A stretch of 6,142 bases of DNA from Chloroflexota bacterium (lineage in GTDB: Bacteria; Chloroflexota; Dehalococcoidia; RBG-13-53-26). The notes beneath the pieces are model-generated. The model saw only the letters and a program-made list of their open reading frames with translations, was not told the origin of the DNA and searched no databases. This document shows, piece after piece, positions 1 through 6,142 of the stretch. Every line of letters begins with the position of its first letter. Positions within the stretch are counted from its first letter, which is position 1. The position numbers and the translations under genes are program-made. The stretch spans positions 1-6,142 of the forward strand of contig JAUWXW010000109.1 in NCBI GenBank assembly GCA_030616195.1, in the 5' to 3' direction.

Positions 1-521
1 CGTTCCTGGGGAGCCAGGGCCTCAACGACCTGGCTGGGTTCATCGAGCTTCCTGTTAAAATCCGCTTCTGCAAAATCGCACAGGCGAATGGCGATTTCAT
101 TAGCCGATCCTGGCGTATCTACCCCAAGCCGTTCCGCGAAACCCTTCAATTTGTCAGGCTCTCGAATCTCGAACAGGGTCTTGCCCTCTGCTGTGGCTCG
201 AAGCGTCTTGACCGTTTGTTCTGTATGGTAATGGTAAGTGGATGCACCCAGGACATTTCTGAGTAACATCATGCGCATGGCCATACCATCGGCTGTGATC
301 CCACATACGCCCTTCTTGTCTTTGGATGCATCTGCGCGGCATGGACCGTTGGAACATAAGTCACACCGGACACCTCCCATACAGAAAGGACACCGCTGAT
401 CAGGGTCGCCTCCCATACCCTGGGTTGCGAATCGATCCCAAATATTGTCCATGTTATCCTTCTTGATCCTGTCGTACATCTTAAGAACGGACTCATGATA
501 GGAAATCCTGTTCTCTTCCAT
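1..521 (-). CDS. cooS: Ni-Fe carbon monoxide dehydrogenase catalytic subunit, N-terminal part (cut by window edge)
   Basis: Anaerobic CODH interconverts CO and CO2 at a Ni-Fe-S C-cluster. Only the first 173 residues of a protein usually about 630 long are present, so the C-cluster ligands lie outside the window. What is visible is the iron-sulfur entry region: C44-x2-C47, then C53-x2-C56-x4-C61 and C73, reading RCPFC, RCDLCSNGPCR and KKGVCG, followed by ADGMAMRMMLLRN and GASTYHYH. The C53/C56/C61/C73 set matches the B-cluster of the family. C44/C47 would be the D-cluster ligands at the dimer interface, with CX2C spacing. The start is taken as the ATG at 521-519, because GGAGG at 533-529 lies 7 nt upstream; an ATG one codon earlier (524) is only 4 nt from it. 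The gene is divergent from the SDR gene. Identification as CODH is firm; catalytic competence and whether ACS genes follow cannot be judged. Confidence 0.92.
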   Translation of the reverse strand, partial: MEENRISYHESVLKMYDRIKKDNMDNIWDRFATQGMGGDPDQRCPFCMGGVRCDLCSNGPCRADASKDKKGVCGITADGMAMRMMLLRNVLGASTYHYHTEQTVKTLRATAEGKTLFEIREPDKLKGFAERLGVDTPGSANEIAIRLCDFAEADFNRKLDEPSQVVEALAPQE

Positions 522-528
522 CATCACA

Positions 529-2257: not shown

Positions 2258-3235
2258 TTGGGTTCAAAAAGAAAGAGGCGAATTGGAATCGTTCTGGCCA
2301 CAATCGCAGTGGCCCTGATCACTTTTGGGGTAGTGTGGGTCACCATCATCTTCCCCGGCCTGAAAAAGCTGCCTGCTGACCTAAACCAGGCCGTGCAATA
2401 TCAAGGGACCGTGACGGTGCTCGATCCCGAAACGTACCAGCCAGTGACCTATGACGACGTCATCCTAACCAGAAGGTGCCAGGCAGTCCGTTCCAGTGGC
2501 GACGTGATCTACATTGAGGAGGAGGTCAGCTTTGTGGATAGCAAAACCGGGCTGGAGATCTCGTCGCTGTATGGAAGTGAACTGCTGGCAGTGGACAGGG
2601 TATCCCGCGCCAATGTACCGGGGTACGGTGACGAGAATCGGGAGGGTTTATGGCAATTTCCCCTGGATGTGAAGACAGGCCAGGATTACCCCGTCTGGCT
2701 TACCGGTAGCCCCACAACTCTGGATGCCCGGTACGTTGGCGAGAAGGACTTCCGCGGGTTACATGTTCTTGTTTATGAGATCGCCACTCCGGACGAGGGT
2801 GTTACCACCCCCGCCGGGATATTCACCCCCGAGATGCAGCTATATCGATGGATTAAGGTGAGGGTGGAGCCTGCCTCCGGGGTAACCGTCTATATGGAGG
2901 ACACCCAGAAAAGAACCTCGAAGATTCCCGTCTTCGATGATTTGTTTCCCAACACGGGTGATATAACGTTCACCGACATGACTGTGTTCGAAACCAGTCT
3001 GGTATTTACTGAAGAGACCATTGAAAGAGAGGTTGATGACGCCAGCTTCTATCGCTGGGCACTCTCCTGGGGCAACACCTATTTACCATGGCTGGTCTTC
3101 GGGTTTGGTGTGGTCATGGGGCTCCTGGGATCGATACTTGTGATCGGAGTCAAAGTCAAAAGGATCCCAATAGCCAAACCTGCGAAGGACGACCTGGCGC
3201 AGGTGCAACCTACTAGCCTGAGGCTCAGTTCGTAG
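2258..3235 (+). CDS. DUF3068 / PorA-family two-TM membrane protein
   Basis: A 325-residue protein of the DUF3068 (PorA) family, whose function is not established in general. The N-terminus is basic (KRKRR) and is followed by a membrane segment at about residues 9-31. A largely extracytoplasmic domain of about 240 residues comes next, then a second membrane segment at about 275-297 and a basic, polar C-terminal tail (KVKR). Family landmarks that I recognise are LPADLN, YQGTVTVLD, the REGLWQFPLDVKTG segment with its YPVW continuation, ARYVGEKDFRGLHVLVYE, and LYRWIKVRVEPASGVTVYMED. Topology is probably both termini inside. Initiation is at TTG, supported by AAAGGA 7 nt upstream. It is flanked by long intergenic regions and is likely transcribed alone. 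The PorA name comes from mycolate-bacterium channel work; channel activity here is not implied. Family call is good, function unknown. Confidence 0.85.
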   Translation: MGSKRKRRIGIVLATIAVALITFGVVWVTIIFPGLKKLPADLNQAVQYQGTVTVLDPETYQPVTYDDVILTRRCQAVRSSGDVIYIEEEVSFVDSKTGLEISSLYGSELLAVDRVSRANVPGYGDENREGLWQFPLDVKTGQDYPVWLTGSPTTLDARYVGEKDFRGLHVLVYEIATPDEGVTTPAGIFTPEMQLYRWIKVRVEPASGVTVYMEDTQKRTSKIPVFDDLFPNTGDITFTDMTVFETSLVFTEETIEREVDDASFYRWALSWGNTYLPWLVFGFGVVMGLLGSILVIGVKVKRIPIAKPAKDDLAQVQPTSLRLSS

Positions 3236-3427: not shown

Positions 3428-3471
3428 ATATGGGACCAGGCATGAAACTCCACGCAAAATCTGCACCAAGT

Positions 3472-3541
3472 ACAACATTACGACCGGGCCTCAACTTCCT
3501 GAACAGCCGATTTCCTTGTTGAATCCCGGTAGTAATGTTGT
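3472..3541 (+). promoter_or_regulatory. Long imperfect inverted repeat in the operon leader
   Basis: Arms 3472-3488 and 3525-3541 pair at 16 of 17 positions: ACAACATTAC with GTAATGTTGT, one G/A mismatch, then ACCGGG with CCCGGT. After a 2/2 internal loop, TCAAC (3491-3495) pairs with GTTGA (3518-3522), leaving a 22-nt loop. The right arm ends 33 nt before the ATG and 19 nt before the AAAGGAG ribosome binding site. No T-run follows, so it is not an intrinsic terminator. If the promoter at 3398-3427 is real, this is a stable stem in the 5' leader and a candidate cis-regulatory RNA. As DNA it could instead be an operator or a small mobile-element remnant. The pairing is seen directly; the role is inferred. 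Confidence 0.6.
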
Positions 3542-3574
3542 CTGGATGAGAAAACCTCGAAAAGGAGAAAAAGG

Positions 3575-5005
3575 ATGGTAGGGATAGTCTCTTACGGTGC
3601 TTACATTCCCATGTACAGACTGAGTCGTGACACAATCGCCTCTGTCTGGGGAAAGTCCCTGGGTCGGGGAGAAAGGGCTGTAGCCAACGCTGACGAAGAC
3701 AGCATAACCATGGCAGTAGAAGCAGTTGTCGATTGTCTCACCGATATAGATCGGCAGGTAGTCGACGGACTTTATTTTGCCTCCACTACGTCACCATACA
3801 AAGATAAACAAGCAGCAAGTATAGTCAGAGCCGCCGCCGATCTTCGGGAAAACATAGATACCATGGATCTTGGCAGCTCTCTGAGGTCCGGCGCTAACGC
3901 GATGACCTCTGCTATGAATGCCATTAAAGCAGGAGAGGCTAACAGAATCATGGTAGTTGCTTCAGAGGGCCGACTGCCGGCCCCAAATTCGGAATTTGAG
4001 CCTGTCTATGGCGATGGGGCGGCTGCCTTCCTGCTGGGAGACTCAGATGTTGCTGCTATTATTGAGGGACACTATACGCTTTCCAGTGAGTTCATGGACG
4101 TATGGCGCAAGGCAAACGATACCTACGCCTGGGCTTGGGAAGACCGGTTCATCAAGGATGAGGGGTACGAGAAGATCTTGCCTCAAGCTGTGAAGGGGTT
4201 GATGCAGAAGTACAATCTGACCCCCCAGGACTTCACCAAGGCAGTCTTCTACGCCCCAGATGCCAGATCGCATGCCGCAATAGCCAGGAAAATCGGACTT
4301 GATCCCAAGACTCAGGTGCAGCAACCTCTATACGATTCCGTAGGTGATACAGGCTGTGCCTTTGCCCCCATGACGCTGGTGGCTGCCCTGGAGGAGGCCA
4401 GACCTGGCGACAAGCTCCTTTTCGCCTCCTACGGTGATGGGGCCGACGCCTACGTGTTGCAGGTGACAGAGCAGATCGAGAAGGTCAGGGACAGGCGAGG
4501 GATAGGACGTCACCTGGCCTCCAAGATGGACCTCTCCAATTATGGCGTTTACTTGCAGATGCGCAGCGTGATAGAGTCGGCGCCTAATCTGCGCCCCGCC
4601 CGCCGCTCCTCCCTTTCGTCCGTGTGGAGAGATCGCAAGATGTTCTATGCCCTGTACGGGCAAAAATGCAAGAGCTGTGGCAAAATCCAGTATCCCAAAC
4701 AGCGACTTTGCATTTACTGCCAGGCGAAGGACAACTTCGAGGAAATAAGGCTGTCTGATAAGAAGGGCAAGCTTTTCACCTACAGCATAGACGAACGGGC
4801 CAGGGAAATAATGCTGCCCCTGGTCAGAGCGGTGATCGACCTCGAAGGCGGCGGCAGGTACTATTCTTCACTGACCGATCGGGACACCGAAAAGATCGAT
4901 GTCGGCATGGACATGGAGCTAACCTTCAGGCTGGTCTTTGACGGAACGAGAGAAGGATCGGGCTTTCGCAACTACATGTGGAAGGCCCGACCTATAAGAT
5001 GTTAG
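3575..5005 (+). CDS. HMG-CoA-synthase-like protein fused to a DUF35 zinc-ribbon/OB-fold domain
   Basis: The 476-residue protein has two parts. Residues 1 to about 340 have the thiolase fold of archaeal-type HMG-CoA synthase: GIVSYGAYIPMYRL, DEDSITMAVEA (40-50), YGDGAAAFLLG (145-155), and PGDKLLFASYGDGADAY (277-293). Residues 356-473 are a DUF35 unit: a zinc ribbon C365-x2-C368 and C379-x2-C382 (CKSCGKIQYPKQRLCIYC), then an OB fold. In archaea these are separate proteins that join a thiolase in one complex, DUF35 bridging the two enzymes. The usual synthase catalytic residues appear replaced: Glu by T71 (GSESHPY became ASTTSPY), Cys by L103 (SSLRSG), His by Y226 (AVFYAPD). True HMG-CoA synthesis is therefore doubtful. 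AAAGGAG lies 7 nt before the ATG. The thiolase gene follows after 12 bp, so the products probably form a complex. Domain calls are firm; the reaction is unknown. Confidence 0.88.
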   Translation: MVGIVSYGAYIPMYRLSRDTIASVWGKSLGRGERAVANADEDSITMAVEAVVDCLTDIDRQVVDGLYFASTTSPYKDKQAASIVRAAADLRENIDTMDLGSSLRSGANAMTSAMNAIKAGEANRIMVVASEGRLPAPNSEFEPVYGDGAAAFLLGDSDVAAIIEGHYTLSSEFMDVWRKANDTYAWAWEDRFIKDEGYEKILPQAVKGLMQKYNLTPQDFTKAVFYAPDARSHAAIARKIGLDPKTQVQQPLYDSVGDTGCAFAPMTLVAALEEARPGDKLLFASYGDGADAYVLQVTEQIEKVRDRRGIGRHLASKMDLSNYGVYLQMRSVIESAPNLRPARRSSLSSVWRDRKMFYALYGQKCKSCGKIQYPKQRLCIYCQAKDNFEEIRLSDKKGKLFTYSIDERAREIMLPLVRAVIDLEGGGRYYSSLTDRDTEKIDVGMDMELTFRLVFDGTREGSGFRNYMWKARPIRC

Positions 5006-5017
5006 GAGATAGTTGAG

Positions 5018-6142
5018 ATGGCAGAAAGCATAAGGGATAAAGTTGCTATTATCGGCATGGGTTGCCCCCCGTGGGGCGAGAGATGGGACTCAGATATCTT
5101 TGACCTGATCACCGAAGCCAGCTTCGGTGCCTTTGAGGACGCTGGAGTAGAACCCAAGCAAATTGAAGCATGCTGGGTGGGATATTACATCAATGATAAT
5201 GCCACTACCGGCCTTGTTGTCGCCCAGACACTGCAACTCCAGCAAATACCCATCACCCGTGTAGAAAACGGCTGCGGCTCCGGATCAGAGGCAATCCGGG
5301 GAGCTGCTTATGGCCTGGCCTCCAAGCAGTACGACCTTGTTCTGGCACTGGGATTTGAAAAGCAGAAGGACGTTGGTTTTCCCGGCCTGATTGTCGCGGG
5401 GGCCCCGGGGAAAGTCTACCCCATGTACGCCGCAGAGCAGGGTGCTGCACCGGGACGTTATGCCATGTCAGCTACGGCCTACTTCCGCAAGTATGGGTTG
5501 AGCCGGGAGGAAGGCAAAACCACGCTGGCCAAGATTTCGGTAAAGAGCCACCACAACGGTGCCCGGAACCCCCGGGCCCACCTGAGACGAGAGATTACGT
5601 TGGAGCAGGCGGTTAACGCCCCCATAATTGCCTGGCCCTTGGGGCTCTTCGACTGCTGCGGGGTAACTGATGGTGCCGCAGCAGCCGTTATGTGCCGCAC
5701 CGAAGATGTCAAGAAGTTCGCCGCTAACCATCCTCACGACTACGTAACCATCAAGGGCTTCGGCATCGCTGCCAGCCCGGGATGGGGGAAAGAGAGAGAG
5801 GACTACGACTTCACCTACTGGGATGCCACCGAAGCGGCCGCCAAGCAGGCATATGCTCAGGCAGGGATAAAGAATCCTCGAAAGGAACTGAGCCTGGCCG
5901 AGGTCCACGACTGCTTCTCCATCGCCGAGCTGGTAGGAGTGGAGTCCATGGGTATCTGTGAGTACGGACATGGCAAGGAAGACGTGGACGCAGGTGCCTG
6001 GGAACAGGAAGGGGAGATACCGGTAAACATAAGCGGCGGGCTGAAGTCCTCCGGTCACCCTATTGGCGCCAGCGGCTGTCGGGAGGTTTTCGAGTTCTAC
6101 ACCCAGTTCCAGGGGAAAGCAGAAGAGCCGTCCCGCCAGTTG
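5018..6142 (+). CDS. Thiolase-family protein (SCP-x/acetyl-CoA acetyltransferase-like), C-terminus cut by window edge
   Basis: 375 residues are present and the frame is open to the end; the family is about 385-430 long, so little is missing. The nucleophile region ENGCGSGSEA puts the acyl-accepting cysteine at C86. VHDCF at 296-300 (H297) and SGGLKSSGHPIGASG at 339-353 (H347) are the other active-site blocks. The final CxGxG-type cysteine block of canonical thiolases would fall just past the edge and cannot be checked. The HDCF and GHPIG style is that of SCP-x/lipid-transfer-like thiolases, which commonly work with a DUF35 partner, as in the archaeal thiolase-HMGCS complex, benzoylsuccinyl-CoA thiolase BbsAB, and Ltp2-ChsH2 steroid aldolase. 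The partner here is the upstream fusion protein. AGGAG (5004-5008) overlaps that gene's stop codon and sits 9 nt before the ATG, so the two are translated from one mRNA. Thiolysis, condensation or retro-aldol cleavage are all possible. Confidence 0.9.
   Translation, partial: MAESIRDKVAIIGMGCPPWGERWDSDIFDLITEASFGAFEDAGVEPKQIEACWVGYYINDNATTGLVVAQTLQLQQIPITRVENGCGSGSEAIRGAAYGLASKQYDLVLALGFEKQKDVGFPGLIVAGAPGKVYPMYAAEQGAAPGRYAMSATAYFRKYGLSREEGKTTLAKISVKSHHNGARNPRAHLRREITLEQAVNAPIIAWPLGLFDCCGVTDGAAAAVMCRTEDVKKFAANHPHDYVTIKGFGIAASPGWGKEREDYDFTYWDATEAAAKQAYAQAGIKNPRKELSLAEVHDCFSIAELVGVESMGICEYGHGKEDVDAGAWEQEGEIPVNISGGLKSSGHPIGASGCREVFEFYTQFQGKAEEPSRQL

Follow-up and report, generated by a model that had tools for sequence, protein, structure and literature searches.

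What does a domain with the fold of 3-hydroxy-3-methylglutaryl-CoA (HMG-CoA) synthase do when the residues that catalyze the reaction are gone? The question is raised by a fusion gene on a contig of a Chloroflexota bacterium (assembly GCA_030616195.1, contig JAUWXW010000109.1), of which 6,142 nucleotides (nt) were analyzed, called here the window. The gene (3575-5005, plus strand) encodes 476 amino acids (aa), comprising an HMG-CoA synthase (HMGCS)-like, thiolase-fold domain at residues 1-336 (3575..4582) and a fused DUF35, a zf-ChsH2 zinc ribbon plus OB fold, at residues 350-473 (4622..4993). A gap of 12 nt separates its stop from the start of an SCP2-type thiolase gene on the same strand (5018..6142), which is cut by the window end. 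The HMGCS fold is present in the window protein, but the catalytic Glu, Cys and His of archaeal-type HMGCS are not. T71 (codon 3785..3787) is located at the site of Glu82 (M. thermolithotrophicus numbering), S102-L103-R104 (3878..3886) replaces Ala-Cys114-Lys, and Y226 (4250..4252) aligns with the catalytic His. Judging from sequence comparisons, the fusion protein is probably a non-catalytic partner of a degradative thiolase, similar to PhlA of the PhlABC acyltransferase but of a separate lineage.

The triad is lost across the family. A search of 5.8 billion proteins returned 5877 matches at E 1e-10, and in the window protein together with the 120 nearest relatives listed, Glu at 71 is found in 0/121, Cys at 103 in 0/121, and His at 226 in 1/121. 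In genome loci (the best 80 of 576; 79 used, with L015 left out for a frameshift), Glu, Cys and His are retained in 0, 0 and 1. A first set of 128 fused rows gave the same picture, with Glu and Cys gone in 128/128 and His retained in one. The wider set of 407 HMGCS-like domains pools all searches, including a second protein search (best 120 of 833 used) and whole-genome searches in the phyla of four source loci titled Chloroflexi (G001, 61 genomes), Deltaproteobacteria (G010, 99), Dethiobacter (G007, 119) and Blastocatellia (G009, 80), from which only the best matches were made into loci. In this set, the full triad is found in 92 of the 115 domains without a DUF35 fusion and in one of the 292 fused domains, where Glu, Cys and His taken singly occur in 2, 1 and 10. 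Plasmid records contain further members in Sphingomonadales, Azoarcus, Rhodococcus, Streptomyces and a haloarchaeon, and all three residues are lost in 6/6 plasmid-borne members examined (6 of 77 matching records), the Cys column being aligned to a gap in L196. The titles of the loci without the triad cover several phyla, and archaea share this state. The original prediction that all three canonical residues are missing is confirmed by the alignment and by these family-wide counts.

The one fused domain that keeps Glu, Cys and His, P0153, scores 577 bits with the HMGCS model TIGR00748 and is likely a genuine HMG-CoA synthase that happens to be fused. A strict pairing of DUF35 fusion with triad loss is ruled out by this protein.

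The triad-less genes are accompanied by a thiolase gene. Counting the window, 79 loci leave 120 nt or more of room, and a same-strand thiolase lies downstream in 75 of them; L015, L056, L061 and L067 lack it, and L001 and L037 have no room. When same-strand open frames up to 400 nt away on both flanks were counted at loci with at least 400 nt of room, an adjoining thiolase frame was found for 120/128 fused and 9/10 unfused triad-less genes. The active-site residues of the partners are intact: in the 75 aligned thiolases, counting rows with letters, Cys86 is present in 72/72, His297 in 70/70, Cys299 in 69/69 and His347 in 69/69. The window thiolase contains the motifs ENGCGSG, VHDCF and KSSGHPIG (Cys86, 5273-5275; HDCF, 5906-5917; His347 of GHP, 6056-6058; plus strand), and hence the nucleophilic Cys, HDCF and GHP of the SCP2 type. 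Parts of one paper give HDCF as the mark of SCP2 thiolases and YDHF or YDCY as that of aldolases (PMC12329534). Since the partners carry HDCF and a nucleophilic Cys, they look like true thiolases; the Ltp2/Sal-type aldolase pattern, YDHF or YDCY without the nucleophilic Cys, does not occur in the partner thiolase. A scaffold for the adjoining thiolase had been one of several roles suggested earlier for the domain, and it is now the best supported of them, given the gene pairing, the intact thiolase site and the precedents of PhlA and the archaeal complex.

The surrounding genes point to degradation. Gene clusters within 8 kilobases were counted at 81 loci, many on short contigs, with genes taken as the longest open frames and Pfam families assigned from one representative per cluster. 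Acyl-CoA dehydrogenase was found at 22 loci, short-chain dehydrogenase/reductase (SDR) at 21, enoyl-CoA hydratase at 20, CoA-transferase III at 13, 3-hydroxyacyl-CoA dehydrogenase at 12, NDP-forming acyl-CoA ligase and B12-binding proteins at 8 each, and methylmalonyl-CoA mutase and AMP-ligase at 7 each. In the near relatives L003 and L004, the next genes encode SDR, MaoC, enoyl-CoA hydratase or acyl-CoA dehydrogenase. In addition, L156, L158 and L159 carry HMGCS-like, DUF35, SDR and SCP2 domains in one chain according to Pfam, and L157 looks similar by its sequence (open frames of 912-939 aa for the four). In L157, L158 and L159 the stop is immediately followed by a thiolase frame, and behind L156 the thiolase is split into two pieces that overlap. 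The fused SDR and SCP2 tie the HMGCS-like domain to the step before thiolysis. A thiolase within the same chain, which might have been expected for frames of 839-939 aa, was not found; the tail is SDR plus SCP2 in 4/5, and the N-terminal extension of L160 has no Pfam match. At L048, L072 and L073, a gene of the size of methylmalonyl-CoA mutase, preceded by a gene of ~130 aa, is located directly upstream of the fusion gene, and that of L072 matches Pfam MM_CoA_mutase. These mutase-like genes perhaps rearrange the carbon skeleton of acyl-CoAs that feed the thiolase. HMG-CoA synthase is not mentioned in the portions consulted of three papers on sulfate reducers (PMC7888143, PMC4103992, PMC5109826).

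A phylogeny separates the family from both true HMGCS and PhlA. In an unrooted tree with the three triad columns blanked and a single PhlA row, seven triad-bearing rows, including P0153, lie on one side of a branch (support 100/97), and 50 triad-less rows are split from the triad-bearing rows plus PhlA with support 98/96, which is again 98/96 without two doubtful rows. The phylogenetic check proposed with the original prediction sets the triad-less proteins apart from true HMGCS with strong support. Because PhlA falls on the true-HMGCS side, its triad loss looks independent of that of the triad-less group, with one PhlA row in an unrooted tree behind this placement. The DUF35 fusion itself is not confined to one clade. 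A single clade of all fused triad-less proteins is not upheld by the approximately unbiased test with all rows (p-AU 1.15e-81); without the possibly truncated L112 and L169, p-AU is 0.014 and the bootstrap is not fully settled.

Among the alternatives, a new active site deserves the first hearing. In this reading, S102 and R104, with D98, R133, D147 or H233, might catalyze another acyl-CoA reaction such as hydrolysis, acyl transfer or a proton relay. In the window protein and its best 120 relatives, S102 is invariant, R104 is conserved in 120/121, D98 in 121/121 and H233 in 120/121. Across 311 triad-less rows, most have S-x-R in place of A-C-K: position 102 is Ser in 277, Thr in 13, Cys in 9 and another residue (Ala, Gly or Val) in 12, and position 104 is Arg in 273 and Lys in 28, whereas 94 triad-bearing rows have Ala at 102 in 94/94 and Lys at 104 in 90/94. 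Comparison of the 128 fused rows with 13 true HMGCS adds charged residues new to the fused rows, R133 for Ala144 (98%) and D147 for Ala158 (91%), together with T for Glu82 (88%), R for Lys115 (82%) and G260 for Tyr272 (100%). The GSGAGSD loop of true HMGCS has a 2-residue deletion in 96-99% of the fused rows (GDG--AD in the window, G287-D291, 4433..4447), and the full deletion is found in 248/292 fused rows of the wider set. Yet the 12 rows with Ala, Gly or Val offer no OH or SH group at 102, D98 is common to true HMGCS, and many loci have L, S, Q or still other residues instead of H233. In the close set, conservation is weak evidence because its members are at least 61% identical. We regard a new active site as unlikely. 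The earlier suggestion that S101, S102 or H233 serves a different reaction holds weakly at most: position 102 is Ser in most rows, but S101 is not conserved and H233 is kept in close relatives only.

A biosynthetic pair is similarly improbable. Here the thiolase would condense acyl-CoAs or acylate a small molecule, as in PhlABC, and the HMGCS-like domain would be the inactive partner beside it. PhlA also lacks the HMGCS Cys and Glu and also stands beside a thiolase and DUF35. However, the frequent neighbors are beta-oxidation genes, an estrogen-degradation cluster included, and PhlA is placed among true HMGCS and not in the triad-less group.

Could the domain still be an HMG-CoA synthase, active through residues at other positions? 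Profile scores speak against it. The window protein scores 188.3 bits with TIGR00748, below the curated cut-off of 353, which none of 12 triad-less proteins scanned reaches. The NCBIfam 'equivalog' model NF003274, by contrast, has a cut-off of 244 bits, and the window protein passes it with 249.6. Eight of the 12 pass (the window protein, L122, L123, L151, P0149, P0164, P0040 and P0043) and four fail (L133, L076, L077 and L067), while L093 and P0153, which have the triad, reach 558 and 575 bits. In the samples from the phyla of the loci titled Chloroflexi, Deltaproteobacteria, Dethiobacter and Blastocatellia, genomes with a match above the TIGR00748 cut-off number 12/61, 0/99, 0/119 and 10/80, and the 12 HMGCS above it in the first sample score 468-550 bits. 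The genomes of ten relatives each have 1-10 HMGCS-like matches, some partial, and 0/32 of these reach the cut-off. By their residues, these multiple genes are unlikely to function as HMG-CoA synthases. HMG-CoA reductase has a match in 0/10 of these genomes, and IspG/GcpE is found in 10/10, one match being partial. C261, beside the pocket motif, is Cys in only 28/121 close members, and C54 is Cys in 85% of the 128 fused rows. An active synthase of this kind is thus very improbable.

The same scores bear on the name. We judge the NF003274 cut-off permissive because 8/12 triad-less proteins pass it, and the HMGCS label has probably spread from this one family model, although that causal step is our inference. 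Among the best 120 relatives, 33 carry source-given names, and 29 of these are HMG-CoA synthase (counted by hand). The notion of a distinct family routinely mis-annotated as HMG-CoA synthase is borne out.

Selection acts on the domain. Between the window and L001, the Nei-Gojobori ratio of nonsynonymous to synonymous substitutions (dN/dS) is 0.080/1.07, or ~0.07, for the whole gene, 0.087/1.31 (~0.07) for the HMGCS-like part and 0.062/0.67 (~0.09) for DUF35; in two more distant pairs, dS is close to saturation. The HMGCS-like domain is therefore under purifying selection, as is DUF35. Pseudogene-like decay of a former HMGCS, which the loss of all three catalytic residues might suggest, is hardly credible in view of the open frame, this dN/dS, 119/476 invariant columns in 19 members (the window and 18 at 61-78% identity to it) and the same state in loci with titles from several phyla and in archaea, just as the intact frame had been read before.

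Several observations weigh against a non-catalytic partner of a degradative thiolase. P0153 retains the full triad, so that fusion does not imply inactivity. Residues that are invariant or nearly so and new to the group (S102, R104, R133 and D147) could have a function of their own. Eight of the 128 fused genes with room have no adjoining thiolase match, although short thiolase pieces are present at L013 and L032, and 15/22 triad-bearing genes do adjoin a thiolase, so the pairing is not special to the triad-less group. Distance matrices of the fusion proteins and thiolases correlate with r 0.742 (n=69; maximum 0.147 in 1000 shuffles), but shared ancestry alone raises r, and the nearest neighbor is common to both tables in only 38/69 loci. 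Finally, absence of the mevalonate pathway is shown for the relatives' genomes only, whose completeness is unreported.

With these points taken into account, we still favor a non-catalytic partner. The window would be a two-gene unit of a fusion protein without HMG-CoA synthase chemistry and a predicted active SCP2-type thiolase. As in the archaeal complex and PhlABC, the HMGCS-like domain most likely keeps its place in a physical thiolase/DUF35/HMGCS-type assembly, its chemistry lost, and may support the thiolase structurally. Its emptied pocket, marked by S-x-R, might line or cap a shared cavity holding the CoA thioester, and the thiolase alone would cleave the C-C bond of a 3-oxoacyl-CoA, the final step of a beta-oxidation pathway. 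A bolder version, for which we would not quite give even chances, is a widespread pseudoenzyme class in which the HMGCS pocket has turned into an acyl-CoA-holding site. The S-x-R pocket would then receive the thioester through a shared CoA site, present it to the thiolase and, with DUF35 and in some lineages the fused SDR and SCP2, give a channeled final half-turn of beta-oxidation that serves bulky or unusual acyl-CoAs, those derived from steroids among them.

Comparison with known systems places the family. Unlike the archaeal thiolase-HMGCS complex, it lacks the triad and has the shortened loop, its DUF35 is fused to the HMGCS-like chain, its context is beta-oxidation, and the relatives' genomes have no reductase match. 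In the acyltransferases PhlABC and MucABC (5M3K, 9SKH, 9VBO), the transfer by PhlABC is described in part of one report as using residues of the thiolase-like PhlC only, with expression of the whole phlABC operon required and PhlA lacking Cys and Glu (PMC6392133). PhlA differs from the window family in keeping the GxGAGSD loop, in having DUF35 as a separate subunit and in serving antibiotic synthesis. It was already called inactive in 2010 in a paper whose consulted sections also list the domains to which DUF35 may be fused, namely those of the thiolase superfamily, SDR, SCP2 and hot-dog dehydratases (PMC2954200). The benzoylsuccinyl-CoA thiolase BbsAB (7PXP) likewise works in degradation and has DUF35 as its partner (E 8.9e-46 for the thiolase and 7.4e-5 for DUF35), but no HMGCS-like subunit is among the 7PXP rows seen. 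The steroid side-chain aldolases ChsH2-Ltp2 and Shy-Sal also join DUF35 to a thiolase-fold enzyme in steroid catabolism; they carry YDHF or YDCY, whereas the window-family partners have HDCF together with a nucleophilic Cys. An inactive relative within a thiolase/DUF35 complex is thus already known in PhlA. In the parts of the open-licence literature consulted, no description of the triad-less fused family as a whole was found, PMC7793797 treating one gene. As far as that literature shows, it is new that the triad-less group is so extensive and uniform, that it is separate from PhlA, that it has a signature of its own and that its partner is a degradative thiolase; the likely origin of the wrong name is new as well.

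That one gene comes from estrogen degradation. The 2020 study of Novosphingobium tardaugens, in its relevant passages, gives EGO55_13555, annotated as HMG-CoA synthase, no place in the pathway, assigns it to another group within the HMG-CoA synthase tree, and proposes that it may not condense and may have another activity such as thiolase (PMC7793797). Next to it lies a thiolase gene, EGO55_13550. The estradiol degrader Novosphingobium sp. ES2-1, so described in part of PMC12507874, has a closely similar gene order on plasmid p3: P450, OB-fold, lipid-transfer protein, hypothetical protein, two enoyl-CoA hydratases, acetyl-CoA acetyltransferase, the fusion, SDR, acyl-CoA dehydrogenase, two VOC genes and indolepyruvate oxidoreductase. 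The ES2-1 fusion protein has T-L-S at the triad sites, HSLRAG and GDGA--EA, and its thiolase has the Cys and HDCF. From gene order, EGO55_13555 would be the same gene as the ES2-1 fusion.

Other features of the window concern the setting of the fusion gene. The DUF35 part exceeds the Pfam cut-offs (zf-ChsH2, 31.4 versus 23.2 bits; OB_ChsH2_C, 27.3 versus 27.1 bits), and its zinc cysteines C365, C368, C379 and C382 are invariant among aligned members. AAAGGAG at 3561..3567 (plus strand) is, by its sequence, a likely ribosome-binding site. The leader contains an inverted repeat at 3472-3541 with 24-nt arms that are 88% complementary, and 3465-3575 folds with -35.6 kcal/mol (z -4.5). No Rfam match at the gathering score was found in the window, this region included. 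The repeat could be an attenuator, an operator or the end of an upstream unit. Further upstream are the start of a CO-dehydrogenase-family gene (Prismane family; 6-527, minus strand), an SDR gene (885-1652) and a PorA/PgfA-like membrane protein gene (2258-3235). L005 has a homologous 656-aa frame (7846-9816), and in both window and L005 the CO-dehydrogenase-family gene lies upstream of the family gene on the opposite strand. A 68-nt direct repeat (79% identity) occupies both intergenic stretches around the SDR gene (689-756 and 1802-1869); its exact 26-nt core was found in 0/191 loci checked.

The family is large, bacterial and archaeal, and its links are to pathways that break down fatty and steroid-like compounds. 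N. tardaugens is cultured, and edc genes have been deleted in it previously, according to parts of PMC7793797, so the partnership is directly testable there. If it is true, the archaeal thiolase/HMGCS-type assembly would have been reused for degradation, with one of its active sites silenced.
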